Shown: piece after piece, positions 1-40,319 of the stretch
Layout: each line of letters begins with the position of its first letter
Position numbering within the stretch: the stretch's first letter is position 1
Origin: Natronospiraceae bacterium
Lineage (GTDB): Bacteria > Pseudomonadota > Gammaproteobacteria > Natronospirales > Natronospiraceae
Length of the DNA: 42,706 nucleotides
Assembly (NCBI GenBank): GCA_007133205.1
Contig: SLND01000027.1
Location: 1-42,706 of the forward strand
Direction of reading: 5' to 3'
Program-made: the position numbers and the translations under genes
Notes under the pieces: generated by a model
Seen by the model: only the letters and a program-made list of their open reading frames with translations
Databases searched by the model: none
Told to the model about the DNA's origin: nothing

Positions 1-1687
1 ACATAACCAGATTCCGGCATTCTCTCAGCACTTCGGCCAGGTAACCCGTAAAGCGCGCTGCCGCTGCCCCGTCAATCACCCGGTGGTCATAGGACAGGGA
101 CAGGGGCAGCATCAGGCGCGGCTCGAAGTCCTGACCATTCCATACCGGTTTCATCGCGGCCTTGGAGACACCGAGGATGGCCACTTCCGGCGCGTTGACA
201 ATGGGCGTGAAGGCGGTGCCGCCAATGCCGCCGAGACTGGACACGGTGAAGCAGGCACCCTGCATCTCCTTCTGCTGCAACTTGCCCTCGCGCGCCTTGC
301 CGGCAAGCTCACCCAGTTCCCTGGCCACATCGAAGACATTCTTCTGGTCCACGTCGCGAATCACCGGCACCACCAGGCCATGCGGGGTATCGGCGGCGAA
401 GCCAAGGTGGAAATACTTCTTGAGGATGAGATGCTCGCCGTCCGGATCCAGCGAGGCGTTGAAATCAGGGAATTCCTTCAGGGCATGGACACAGGCCTTC
501 ATGATGAAAGCCAGCGGCGTCATCTTGGTGCCCAGAGCCTCGGCGTCTGACTTCAGCGCCTTGCGCACCGCATCCATCCGGGTGATATCAGCCTCGTCAT
601 GCTGGGTGACATGGGGCGCATTGACCCAGCTTGCCTGCAAGCGTGGCCCGGAAATCTTCTTGATGCGACTGAGGGCCACGCGTTCGATCTCGCCGAATCT
701 GGAATGGTCGATCTCGGGCACCTGGGGCAAGCCGGCGCCACTGCCGCCACCACCACGCAGTTGGGTCTTGACCCACTGCTTGACGTCGTCCCTGGTAATG
801 CGGCCCTTGTAACCGGAACCACGTATACGGGCCAGATCCGCGCCGAGCTCGCGTGCAAAGCGGCGTACCGCCGGGGTGGCATGGGCCCGCGCGAAGCCCG
901 ATTCATCAATCGCGGGCAACTCGCCGCGATCCGCCGGCCTGGGGCTCGGGGCCGGGCGTCCGGAACTCTTTTCCGTGCCCTTGTCCGAACCTTTTTCCGG
1001 AGATTTCTCGGATTTGCCCCCACCCGTCGTCTTCTTTTCGTCAGGTGTTTCGTCCGCCACCTGGGCCAGCAGGGTCGCGACCACATCCCCCTCGGAAACC
1101 TTGTCACCGGTCCGGGTCTTGACCCCGGTCACCTTGCCGGCATGGGGCGCGGGCACGTCCATGGCGGCCTTGTCCGACTCCAGGGTGATCAGGCCCTGCT
1201 CGGCCTCCACTTCCTCGCCCTCGGATACCAGCACCTCGATCACTTCCACCGCATCGAAATCACCGATATCGGGAACCTTCACCTCGATTTCCCGGGTCTC
1301 CCCCGCCGGGGCCGCGTCGCTTGATTCCGACGCCTCCGTGGACTCGGCATCGGTAGACTCGGGATGGGCCGCCTCGGTCTCGCCAGCTTCGGTTGTTTCC
1401 GCCCCCGACGCCTCCTCCTCTTCGGAGGCATCATCCTCGTCGCCGGCCGCCGGCTCCAGCAGGGCAATCACCGTCCCCTCGCTGACCTTGTCGCCCGTGG
1501 CCACCTGGAGACCGGCAATCTTTCCCGGTTGCGGTGCCGGCACATCCATGGCGGCCTTGTCGGTCTCCAGGGTGATCAGACCCTGTTCCGCTTCCACCTG
1601 GTCCCCCACCGACACCAGCACATCAATGACCTCGACCTCATCGAAATCACCGATGTCCGGGACCTTGACTTGGATGTTGTCCGCCAT
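1..1687 (-). CDS. aceF: Pyruvate dehydrogenase E2, dihydrolipoamide acetyltransferase (3' edge of gene at window start)
   Basis: E2 core of the pyruvate dehydrogenase complex; it passes acetyl groups from E1 to CoA on swinging lipoyl arms. The reading frame is open from the ATG at 1687 to the window edge, 562 residues. Two lipoyl domains are visible, with lipoyl lysines in ETDKAAMDVP (K44) and ESDKAAMDVP (K173). A peripheral-subunit-binding domain follows (HATPAVRRFARELGADL), then the acetyltransferase domain with the active-site motif SYDHRVIDGA near the C-terminus. The last visible residues are NLVM and the next base is T. E. coli AceF ends in LVM, so the stop codon probably starts at base 1 and the gene is essentially complete. 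The linker after lipoyl domain 1 (about 78-132) is very acidic, and the linker after domain 2 is rich in Lys, Ser and Gly. The gene follows aceE after 180 bases that hold a heptamer-repeat element. No lpd is in view; it may lie beyond the edge. Confidence 0.95.
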   Translation of the reverse strand, partial: MADNIQVKVPDIGDFDEVEVIDVLVSVGDQVEAEQGLITLETDKAAMDVPAPQPGKIAGLQVATGDKVSEGTVIALLEPAAGDEDDASEEEEASGAETTEAGETEAAHPESTDAESTEASESSDAAPAGETREIEVKVPDIGDFDAVEVIEVLVSEGEEVEAEQGLITLESDKAAMDVPAPHAGKVTGVKTRTGDKVSEGDVVATLLAQVADETPDEKKTTGGGKSEKSPEKGSDKGTEKSSGRPAPSPRPADRGELPAIDESGFARAHATPAVRRFARELGADLARIRGSGYKGRITRDDVKQWVKTQLRGGGGSGAGLPQVPEIDHSRFGEIERVALSRIKKISGPRLQASWVNAPHVTQHDEADITRMDAVRKALKSDAEALGTKMTPLAFIMKACVHALKEFPDFNASLDPDGEHLILKKYFHLGFAADTPHGLVVPVIRDVDQKNVFDVARELGELAGKAREGKLQQKEMQGACFTVSSLGGIGGTAFTPIVNAPEVAILGVSKAAMKPVWNGQDFEPRLMLPLSLSYDHRVIDGAAAARFTGYLAEVLRECRNLVM

Positions 1688-1747
1688 GGGAAATCCTTCG
1701 TTCTGTTGTCTTGTTTGCCGGCCAGGTCGTGCAGATTGTTGGCTTTA

Positions 1748-1861
1748 GTGCACAGAGCACAGTTCACAGTGCACAGAAGGCCGAGTCGATTGTTGCTGCC
1801 GTGGTGTCAACGAGAAACTGCAATCACGATTTCTGTGCACTGCGCACTGTGCACTGCCCAC
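1748..1861. repeat. Inverted heptamer-repeat element, copy 1 (aceE-aceF spacer)
   Basis: The left arm (1748-1775) is four tandem 7-base units of consensus GTGCACA on the + strand. The right arm (1834-1861) is four units of the same consensus on the - strand. Both arms end inward with GTGCACAGAA, and 58 bases separate them, so the transcript could form a long hairpin. The right arm begins 6 bases beyond the aceE stop codon (TGA at 1870-1868). The left arm lies 60 bases upstream of the aceF start. Related arrays occur at 6290-6439 and 40135-40313. Confidence 0.85.
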
Positions 1862-1867
1862 TTCCCG

Positions 1868-4534
<2,667 letters not shown>

Positions 4535-4805
4535 TATGGTTCCTTGTGATCGGTGTCTGTCTGGGGATCGGTGCCCGCCGGGCAGGAATCGCACCCGGTT
4601 CACTTGCCCGTGGTGACCGCTCTGAGGCAGGCTGCAAGCGCCGGATCGGGCCACTTGCGCGACGGCCACCGAACCGCGAGCGCCGGTCCGGTGCATCCGC
4701 CAGTCGGGCGTCAACGGAATACCGGATTGTATGTGTATTCCGCGGGCCCTGAATTCAAACGCAGGATATCATCGTTTTTCACCCCGACGAGGTCAAGGAA
4801 CCCCG

Positions 4806-6293
4806 ATGCAACCTACCCTGCCGGATTTTCCGAAAATCACGATCAAACAGGATCCGCAGCTGCCCACGGAATCCGACCTGGAAGCATTCGATGCCGTGGT
4901 CTGTCTCCTTCCGGGCGAACCCGAAGCGCTGCCGGACAATCTGCCCTGGAAGGCATTTCTCGATGCCCGCATGGAACGCTTTCCCGACCGCAAACAGCCG
5001 GTCACCACCGGCCTGCCCGGTGGCGGGCATGGGGTCCTGGCGAGGATTGCCGAAGGTGTGGAATCCTTCGATGCCCTGAGCCGGGCAGGCAAGATCGTGG
5101 CCTCACTGCTTGAGACGCATCCGCGCCACATTGCCGTGCTGTCGTGCCTGAAGAGCAAACGGGATGCCGAATGCATGTCGGAAGCACTGCTTGCCGCGCT
5201 CCATGCCGCCATTTTCCGCATGCCCCGGATCGGCAAGGCACCACCGCGCCAACCAGCAGTGGAATCCCTGCATCTGCATGGCGATATCGGCGCACCGGAT
5301 ATTGCCCGGGTGGAAGCCACCGCCGAAGGCAACAACCTGGCGCGCTGGCTCACCCAATTGCCGGGCAATTACCTGACACCCGGTATCTATCGGGGCTTTG
5401 CGAACGCGCTCGCGGAACGCGAAGGCTGGAAGATGGATTTTCTCGACCGCAAACGCCTGGAGAAGCTGGGCGCGGGGGCCTTCCTGTCCGTGGTGGAAGC
5501 CAGTCCACGCGAGGATGCCGGTATCTGCCATCTTCGCTATCGCCCGCCGGGCGCCAGGGGAAAGCCCCTCGCCCTGGTGGGCAAGGGCATCTGTTTCGAT
5601 ACCGGCGGCACCAATCTCAAGAATGCCTCCGGCATGCTGGGCATGCATGGCGACATGGGGGGCTCGGCAGTGGCCCTGGGCACCCTGCTCGCCCTGACCC
5701 GACTCGGTTTCCCGGAACCGGTGGATTGCTGGCTGGCCCTGGCCGAGAACCACATCGGTGAACGCGCGGTCCGCTGCAATGACGTGGTCACGGCGGTGGA
5801 TGGCACCACCATCGAGATAATCAACACCGACGCCGAGGGCCGGATGGTCCTGGCCGATACCCTCGCCCTGGCGGGCCGGGAAGAAGCCCGGGCGATCCTG
5901 GATTTCGCGACCCTGACCGGGTCCTGTGTGGCCGCCCTGGGGCATCGCATGAGCGGCGGCCTCACCAATCGCCCGGACTGGAACCTGGCCCTGCTGGAAA
6001 CCGGACGGGACTGTGGCGAACGGGTCTGGCCGCTGCCCAACAGCGCCGACTACGACGAAGACCTGGAATCTCCGGTGGCCGACATCCGCCAATGTCGCCC
6101 CCCGGCGGAGGCCGACCACATCTACGCCGCCCGCTTTCTCAACCGCTTCGTTCCGGCCGAATGCGGCTGGGTGCACGTGGACATGTCTGCCGGAACACGG
6201 GAAGGGGGCCTCGCGCACATCCCCACCGACACCACCGGTTTCGGGGTACGCTTCGGGACGGCATGGATGCATCGCCTGCTGGAAAACCAGTGA
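4806..6293 (+). CDS. M17-family leucyl aminopeptidase
   Basis: Cytosolic metallo-aminopeptidase of family M17, 495 residues. It removes N-terminal residues using two metal ions. The C-terminal catalytic domain keeps the expected ligands and catalytic residues: K260 (VGKG), D265 (CFDTGG), K272 (TNLK), D283 (HGDMGG), and D342, E344, R346 in the family signature NTDAEGRMVLAD. Where canonical PepA has GGISLKP, this protein reads GGTNLKN, so it belongs to a divergent M17 subgroup rather than being a plain PepA, and I give no symbol. The ATG at 4806 is chosen because AAGGA lies just upstream; an in-frame ATG at 4731 has no such support. The stop codon (6291-6293) sits inside the first heptamer of a repeat element. 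Substrate range cannot be read from sequence. Confidence 0.9.
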   Translation: MQPTLPDFPKITIKQDPQLPTESDLEAFDAVVCLLPGEPEALPDNLPWKAFLDARMERFPDRKQPVTTGLPGGGHGVLARIAEGVESFDALSRAGKIVASLLETHPRHIAVLSCLKSKRDAECMSEALLAALHAAIFRMPRIGKAPPRQPAVESLHLHGDIGAPDIARVEATAEGNNLARWLTQLPGNYLTPGIYRGFANALAEREGWKMDFLDRKRLEKLGAGAFLSVVEASPREDAGICHLRYRPPGARGKPLALVGKGICFDTGGTNLKNASGMLGMHGDMGGSAVALGTLLALTRLGFPEPVDCWLALAENHIGERAVRCNDVVTAVDGTTIEIINTDAEGRMVLADTLALAGREEARAILDFATLTGSCVAALGHRMSGGLTNRPDWNLALLETGRDCGERVWPLPNSADYDEDLESPVADIRQCRPPAEADHIYAARFLNRFVPAECGWVHVDMSAGTREGGLAHIPTDTTGFGVRFGTAWMHRLLENQ

Positions 6294-6439
6294 ACAGTAA
6301 ACAGATGAAAGTGAACAGGCGGCCGTGCCAGCCGCCCGGCCGTCCGTTTCCTGATATTCACCCCCAGACCGGATGCCGGCAGTCTGCACGGCCAGTCCGA
6401 AGCGGCACGGCCTGGCTGTCTGCACGACCGGCTGTTCAC
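6290..6439. repeat. Inverted heptamer-repeat element, copy 2 (aminopeptidase-pyrC spacer)
   Basis: The left arm at 6290-6317 is four tandem 7-base units (GTGAACA, GTAAACA, GATGAAA, GTGAACA) on the + strand. A single clear unit, GTGAACA, lies on the - strand at 6439-6433. Both outer ends carry CCAGTGAACAG. The left outer end overlaps the aminopeptidase stop codon. The interior has a second inverted pair, GGCCGTGCC and GGCACGGCC. This copy is more decayed than those at 1748-1861 and 40135-40313. The rest of the 202-base spacer holds nothing else I can name. Confidence 0.7.
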
Positions 6440-6495
6440 TGGGAACCTTTCCTTAGTATCGGTACACTGTTCGCCGCATTTCCGTGGACGCTCCC

Positions 6496-32581: not shown

Positions 32582-32625
32582 AGGAGGAGATGGAGGTAGC
32601 TTTAGGAGGAGGTGGAGGTAGCTTT
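32582..32625. repeat. 22-base purine-rich tandem duplication
   Basis: Two adjacent 22-base units (32582-32603 and 32604-32625) differ at one base. Each holds AGGAGG, TGGAGG and ends TAGCTTT. They lie between the rpsT terminator and the purA stop, in the 3' untranslated region of the purA message on the opposite strand. No function is recognised. Confidence 0.85.
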
Positions 32626-40116: not shown

Positions 40117-40134
40117 TGGGGCATAGGTATTGGA

Positions 40135-40313
40135 GTGCACAGTGGACAGCGCACAGTGCACAGAGAGCAGTGGGCCGTGCTATCGGATCGCTTGCACTGA
40201 CAGTCCACGGCAGACTGCCATTTGCGAACGAGACGCAGGGATTGCCTTTTCGAAGCGGCACATATCAGCGGCCGGCACGGCACGCTGTGTACTGTGTACT
40301 GTGTACTGTTCAC
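40135..40313. repeat. Inverted heptamer-repeat element, copy 3 (mutL-miaA spacer)
   Basis: The left arm at 40135-40169 is five tandem 7-base units around GTGCACA on the + strand. The right arm at 40286-40313 is three identical TGTGTAC units plus TGTTCAC, so on the - strand it reads one GTGAACA then three GTACACA. The arms face each other across 116 bases. The right arm begins 6 bases after the mutL stop, with a GGGAAG-type boundary like that at the aceE stop. The left arm is 18 bases upstream of miaA. Related to 1748-1861 and 6290-6439. Confidence 0.85.
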
Positions 40314-40319
40314 TTCCCT

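Follow-up and report, generated by a model that had tools for sequence, protein, structure and literature searches.

The mirrored heptamer arrays between aceE and aceF of a Natronospiraceae bacterium are probably (we put the chance at roughly two in three) the arms of a mobile element that belongs to the 23S rRNA intervening-sequence (IVS) class and is present here as a non-autonomous copy with an internal deletion; in this class the full form carries the gene for the intervening-sequence protein (IVP, PF05635, also known as 'S23' or 'four helix bundle'). The window, that is, the whole stretch of DNA analysed, comprises the 42,706 nucleotides of contig SLND01000027.1. The aceE-aceF element sits between protein genes and not in 23S rRNA, so it is an intergenic variant rather than an IVS in the strict sense. 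The function of IVP and the origin of intergenic heptamer repeats are two old puzzles that seem to belong to a single element; we did not find a link between IVP genes and mirrored repeats in the openly licensed literature.

Mirrored heptamer arrays in the window

The aceE-aceF spacer and its neighbours are laid out as follows, in window coordinates.

1 to 1687, minus strand: aceF, E2 acetyltransferase, the downstream gene (TIGR01348, 663 bits), which starts at 1687 and runs off the window
1747 to 1776, plus strand: aceF-side arm, AGTGCAC AGAGCAC AGTTCAC AGTGCAC AG
1777 to 1832, no strand assigned: truncated core of 56 bp between the arms (homology to the copy on contig C113 of the same genome)
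1833 to 1862, minus strand: aceE-side arm, AGTGGGC AGTGCAC AGTGCGC AGTGCAC AG in the minus-strand reading, 5 nt behind the aceE stop
1868 to 4570, minus strand: aceE, pyruvate dehydrogenase E1, homodimeric type, the upstream gene (TIGR00759, 1469 bits); the end is that of the translated frame and the stop codon is 1868-1870

As the original prediction held, four heptamers on each side face one another, and the inner ends of both arms read GTGCACAGAA. The gap is 56 bases, not the 58 given there, and the outer edge lies 5-6 bases past the aceE stop, in keeping with the 6 proposed. The 7-base spacing is exact, while the units are degenerate and not exact repeats. Chance is excluded for these arrays and the copies of the same type. 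Allowing up to three mismatches, GTGCACAGTGCACA matches the window 22 times (shuffles: mean 3.5, largest 10), and two facing period-7 pairs occur in the window against none in a control that was reversed without complementing. The arms pair, forming a long stem as the complementary ends of an IVS do, and the RNA of the element folds at -57.7 kcal/mol with a z score of -5.5, none of 200 shuffles being equally stable, which agrees with the strong hairpin originally predicted. With its tandem 7-bp units in intergenic DNA, the element also has the hallmark of the heptamer tandem repeats (STRR-like, GGGAATC, TAACTGA).

Copies had also been reported at 6290 and 40135, and both are genuine copies of this type.

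6289 to 6318, plus strand: second copy, left arm, AGTGAAC AGTAAAC AGATGAA AGTGAAC AG
6319 to 6430, no strand assigned: second copy, core, homologous to element cores of the related genomes G002 and G003 (E down to 6e-6)
6431 to 6447, minus strand: second copy, short right arm, CTGTTCACTGGGAAC, preceding pyrC (6496)
40134 to 40163, plus strand: third copy, miaA-side arm
40164 to 40284, no strand assigned: third copy, core, homologous to the copies on contigs C156 and C20 of the same genome (E 4e-6)
40285 to 40314, minus strand: third copy, mutL-side arm, AGTGAAC AGTACAC AGTACAC AGTACAC AG, 5-6 nt behind the mutL stop (40320)

The second copy (6289-6447) lies between an aminopeptidase gene, whose stop codon (TGA, 6291-6293) falls within the first unit of the left arm, and pyrC; the third (40134-40314) lies between mutL and miaA. 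Against shuffles, their folds have z scores of -4.3 and -4.0, respectively. Elsewhere in the window, at 32582-32625, a 22-bp unit (AGGAGGAGATGGAGGTAGCTTT) stands in two tandem copies that are 95% identical. Among known Rfam RNAs, only a tRNA in the window scored above its gathering score with covariance models.

A dispersed element behind stop codons

The arrays are not confined to the three sites of the window. In its genome (G000; 2.07 Mb, 83.8% complete, 194 contigs) the triple-heptamer pattern gave 35 matches at about 12 loci and none in a backward control, and this copy number, obtained from pattern searches and sequence stretches, is a lower bound; several matches lie at contig ends, so that the repeats break the assembly and copies are undercounted. 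For example, contigs C20, C106, C156, C164 and C113 end in heptamer arrays or at most about 20 bp away from them. Together with the common cores and empty sites described below, these loci uphold the predicted dispersed miniature element. No match to a known repeat family of the lineage was found in the openly licensed literature, which does hold an analogue in architecture from Xanthomonas (PMC4692102). Among 38 relatives, the arm family of the window occurs only in three of the same family. The sister genome G002 has 56 triple-heptamer matches, built from two kinds of unit (AGTGAAC and AGTTCCC).

An asymmetric core is common to the elements: in 181 of 666 pairs, the two cores match one another at E<1e-3, and shuffled cores gave no such pair. 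The aceE-aceF copy and the copy on C113 are 87% identical over 55 bp (E 4.5e-13; core, 0/2000 shuffles) and have in common the 27-bp stretch GGCCGAGTYGATTGTKBYTGCCGTGGT. The mutL-miaA and aminopeptidase-pyrC sites are short, empty spacers in G001-G003, and the mutL-miaA site is empty in G008 too. In G002 and G003, 70 of 76 arms terminate with a complete unit, flush with its 5' edge, and the base before is a purine in 49 of 60 cases; a direct repeat of at least 3 bp, as expected of a target-site duplication, was present at 0 of 30 insertions, and a search for palindromic extension of the flanks at insertions found none. Tabulated relative to stop codons, as the original prediction had proposed, the elements lie at a median distance of 3.5 nt, and the stop codon is often formed inside the first AGTGAAC units (at -5, -12 and -19 nt).

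Some loci have more elaborate structures. At G002:C1 312208-312494 and 320513-320830, facing 11-mer arrays lie outside facing 10-mer arrays as nested shells, and both sets of shells surround the GGCCGTGCC...GGCACGGCC core that is also found in AGTGAAC elements, so that arms look exchangeable around a core. At an orthologous site in two sister species (L065:9173-9423 and L079:2599-2891), the arms are near-identical while the core is opposite in orientation and different in content, a pair that we read as core flipping or exchange via the arms. Facing arrays of 6-bp units (TCGTTG/TCGTAA) occur, mostly between convergent genes, at G002:C1 108072, 134044, 136069, 286031, 307199, 318639 and 353330, two of these seven sites containing a second, inner heptamer array of the AGCTACG type.

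The aceE-aceF spacer in relatives and alternative explanations

Comparison of orthologous aceE-aceF spacers, also proposed originally, revealed that neither the sequence nor the presence of the element is conserved. Facing heptamers of unrelated sequence occupy the spacer in G001 (AGCTNCA), G003 (GAGCNNC) and G008 (GTGAGAC); G002 has a remnant, G005, G009 and G010 have a REP-like palindrome, and G004 and G007 have nothing. Similarly, at other element sites of G002 the counterpart in G001 is an AGCTNCA element, a REPIN or nothing, and the AGCTNCA and GTGAGAC families are each multicopy and lineage-specific. The element is not a conserved aceE/aceF regulator. (The aceE match of G001, at G001:C1:221539-224217, has one internal TGA, which may be an end effect, a sequencing error or a frame problem.) We therefore find it improbable that the arrays serve the pyruvate dehydrogenase operon as a conserved cis-regulatory hairpin, whether by protecting aceE mRNA or by setting the aceE:aceF ratio, even though the fold is strong and directly behind the aceE stop and some facing array is present in this spacer in several relatives. 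Hairpins this close to a stop may lower translation, as E. coli REP hairpins less than 16 nt from the stop do (Liang et al. 2015, as cited in PMC12306157). Yet the same element stands between unrelated genes and the arms do not covary, and the dedicated role in the aceE:aceF ratio that had been suggested is not supported. Similarity between the two arms within a locus does not exceed that between arms across loci (0.853 vs 0.861, p 0.79), giving no sign of locus-by-locus selection for pairing.

That last comparison also bears on the idea that the arrays grew in place by slippage and hairpin-templated correction, with no transposition. Such growth would suit the variable unit number, a period that is conserved where sequence is not, and the several families seen at one site; nevertheless, cores common to different loci, empty sites, identical unit-locked ends across loci and arms of one locus that mirror each other no better than random arms make it an unlikely origin. 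Short, extragenic, multicopy elements with inverted arms might instead be REPINs or ordinary MITEs mobilised by a RAYT or an IS transposase, and RAYTs are present in G001-G003. Those RAYTs, however, carry GTAGGAG/GTGGGAG REPs at their flanks and not heptamer arms, G000 has no RAYT, target duplications are missing, as they should not be in an IS-derived MITE, and REPINs are nested inside heptamer cores as separate elements; we regard this identity as very improbable. The original view that the arrays are neither a terminator nor a REP sequence agrees with these data, the aceE-aceF element having no GC stem with a T run and no link to a RAYT of the same genome. Integron attC sites were considered since copies in G002 cluster behind ORFs; by inspection, the arm consensus is without the GTTRRRY/RYYYAAC core.

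IVP genes within heptamer arms

The preferred assignment to the IVS/IVP class draws on G002, in which AGTGAAC arms enclose an IVP gene. The full-length form of the window's arm family thus contains the IVP gene that is absent from the aceE-aceF copy. Of the first 23 nt after the left arm of this element, 18 agree with short-element cores (0/2000 permutations with untrimmed cores; 6/200 shuffles with trimmed cores), and the short copies therefore look like internal deletions of an IVP-bearing element.

To look from the protein's side, 53 IVP genes were sampled by protein alone, regardless of repeats, from Pseudomonadota (29), relatives (11) and plasmids of cyanobacteria, Bacteroidota, Gemmatimonadota and Azospirillum (13). 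Tandem arrays of 7- or 8-base units lie beside 50 of them (27/29, 10/11 and 13/13). In these genomes, which are partly related and not independent, period-7 arrays flank the IVP gene on at least one side in 46 of 53 cases (26/29, 9/11 and 11/13), as compared to 36 of 662 control genes from two genomes of the window's family; genes were called simply as ORFs. Of periods other than 7 and 8, none was enriched around IVP genes except 14, which is two units; upstream of one IVP gene, L323, lies an array of hexamers. A strict score for complementarity between upstream and downstream sides was passed by 16/29, 5/11 and 6/13 loci, a low rate that we ascribe to arms with few, diverged units, and the period test is the stronger one. 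The arms vary freely (GTAGGCA, GAGTTCT, GTGCTGC, GTGAGGC, AAAGCTA and others) around a constant layout, and in most IVP elements their sequence is unrelated to that of the window's arms, a point against the IVS/IVP reading.

The same layout is present in one bona fide 23S IVS. In Azospirillum lipoferum plasmid AZO_p2 (locus L364; NC_016586, at about 14.4-14.7 kb), a 23S rRNA gene (Rfam LSU_rRNA_bacteria, E 5e-296) is split by an intervening sequence that encodes IVP and whose heptamer arms face each other (AGAGGACGGATGACAGAGGACGGAGGACAG...). The gene table of the plasmid has no entry at this locus. In three cyanobacterial plasmids (L355, L358 and L361), array-armed IVP elements stand in CRISPR-cas operons, in cas6/cas4 or cmr2/cmr3 gaps.

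Against the IVS/IVP reading, no IVP gene was found in G000 (83.8% complete) or G001 (97%), both of which are rich in arrays. The arrays may outlive IVP or not need it, and IVP, with a preference for hairpins, could merely travel along as a passenger or hitch-hiker. A search between distant arms for an autonomous transposase found only the IVP gene; that no mobilising enzyme or movement was seen also weighs against this reading. IVP has a solved relative (2gsc, XCC0516 of X. campestris) and gave a weak match, below the cut-off, to the bAvd profile; it is similar to Avd, which partners diversity-generating reverse transcriptases (PMC10053308).

A model for insertion, cleavage and spread

We propose that the full element would consist of facing arrays of 7-bp units (about four units a side, stem about 30 bp) around a gene for IVP, a four-helix-bundle protein, and that short copies would retain the arms and part of the core. 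The elements lie directly behind stop codons, with no target duplication, and at a given spot arms of unrelated sequence take one another's place. In RNA the arms would pair into a long duplex, which RNase III, by analogy with rRNA IVSs, should cut. A cut aceEF message would yield two working halves, aceE and aceF, translated separately, much as IVSs split 23S rRNA harmlessly. Both rRNA loops and the gap behind a stop codon tolerate a cut, from which we infer that RNase III splitting could make insertion nearly harmless. A local effect of the aceE-aceF element on its mRNA is likely, and it might extend to the aceE:aceF balance. IVP may participate in mobility; its likeness to Avd makes RNA-based spread attractive, though unproved. 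If the IVS/IVP reading holds, operon messages such as that of aceEF should be split in a way that depends on RNase III.

The link between IVP and heptamers also offers a test of the old idea, quoted in PMC4990558, of 23S IVSs as mobile elements with an ORF that serves their mobility. In Coxiella burnetii, an IVS with tandem heptamers before the S23p/IVP gene and terminal inverted repeats is excised by RNase III and has been called 'selfish' (PMC4990558). Like the present elements, 23S IVSs with S23p/IVP have complementary ends that form a long stem and an IVP gene in the full form, and their spread is thought to be horizontal; they sit in helices 9, 25 and 45, whereas the present elements follow the stop codons of protein genes, occur in large numbers and for the most part have no IVP gene.

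Similar architectures in other bacteria

A broader reading, to which we would give slightly less than even odds, is that facing short-period arrays, mostly heptamers, form one pan-bacterial class of selfish RNA-hairpin elements with IVP, here an Avd relative, as their protein, surviving where cuts in the transcript do no harm (rRNA loops, behind stop codons). It would take in the cyanobacterial repeats, Xanthomonas GGGAATC and the GTGAACA, AGCTGCA and GTGAGAC families, with 23S IVSs as a special case and not the type. The link between IVP and heptamers would allow annotation to treat 'four helix bundle' genes and many arrays in intergenic DNA as one kind of element.

Several known repeats are comparable. 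The Xanthomonas GGGAATC repeats (Rehm et al. 2015, PMC4692102) form intergenic arrays that lie about 28 nt from the 5' gene, each genome having about 70 convergent pairs; they resemble the present arrays in their intergenic heptamers and convergent pairs and differ in sequence. They were read as G-quadruplexes and said to be unlinked to mobile elements, with no mention of IVP (PMC4692102); X. campestris encodes the IVP protein XCC0516 (2gsc). The TAACTGA repeats of Beggiatoaceae (MacGregor 2015, PMC4679880) and cyanobacterial heptamer repeats likewise have period 7 and are intergenic, beside start or stop codons, although they were taken for direct repeats on one side only and for sites of regulators, the facing arm and IVP going unnoticed; the TAACTGA paper makes no mention of IVP (PMC4679880). 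REP/REPIN-RAYT systems (PMC3116915) are also short, extragenic, inverted and near stop codons; in contrast, they are palindromes without tandem units, are moved by RAYT, and in the present genomes are nested as separate elements. REPIN-like palindromes (GTGGGAGCGGCATTCCTGCCGCGA...) nested in heptamer elements occur at L065:5838-6130 and at L079:310-602 and 2599-2891. Similarly MITE-like and built on a tandem repeat, BrickBuilt of Porphyromonas gingivalis (PMC4596501) has a single 23-bp array at its centre and small inverted ends, and lies 49-591 nt from genes, unlike the two facing 7-bp arrays at stop codons described here.

A scan of 84,980 species genomes gave matches that, among those listed, include Cyanobacteria, Bacteroidota, Acidobacteria, Chloroflexi, Clostridia, Spirochaetes and others. 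Among the matches listed, a facing array within 250 bp was present on the inner side of 37 of 100 usable arrays and on the outer side of none, against a background of 22 in 1741 windows. Also among the matches listed, 59 of the 84 arrays that lie outside ORFs and have a called upstream gene follow its stop codon, at a median of 4 nt.
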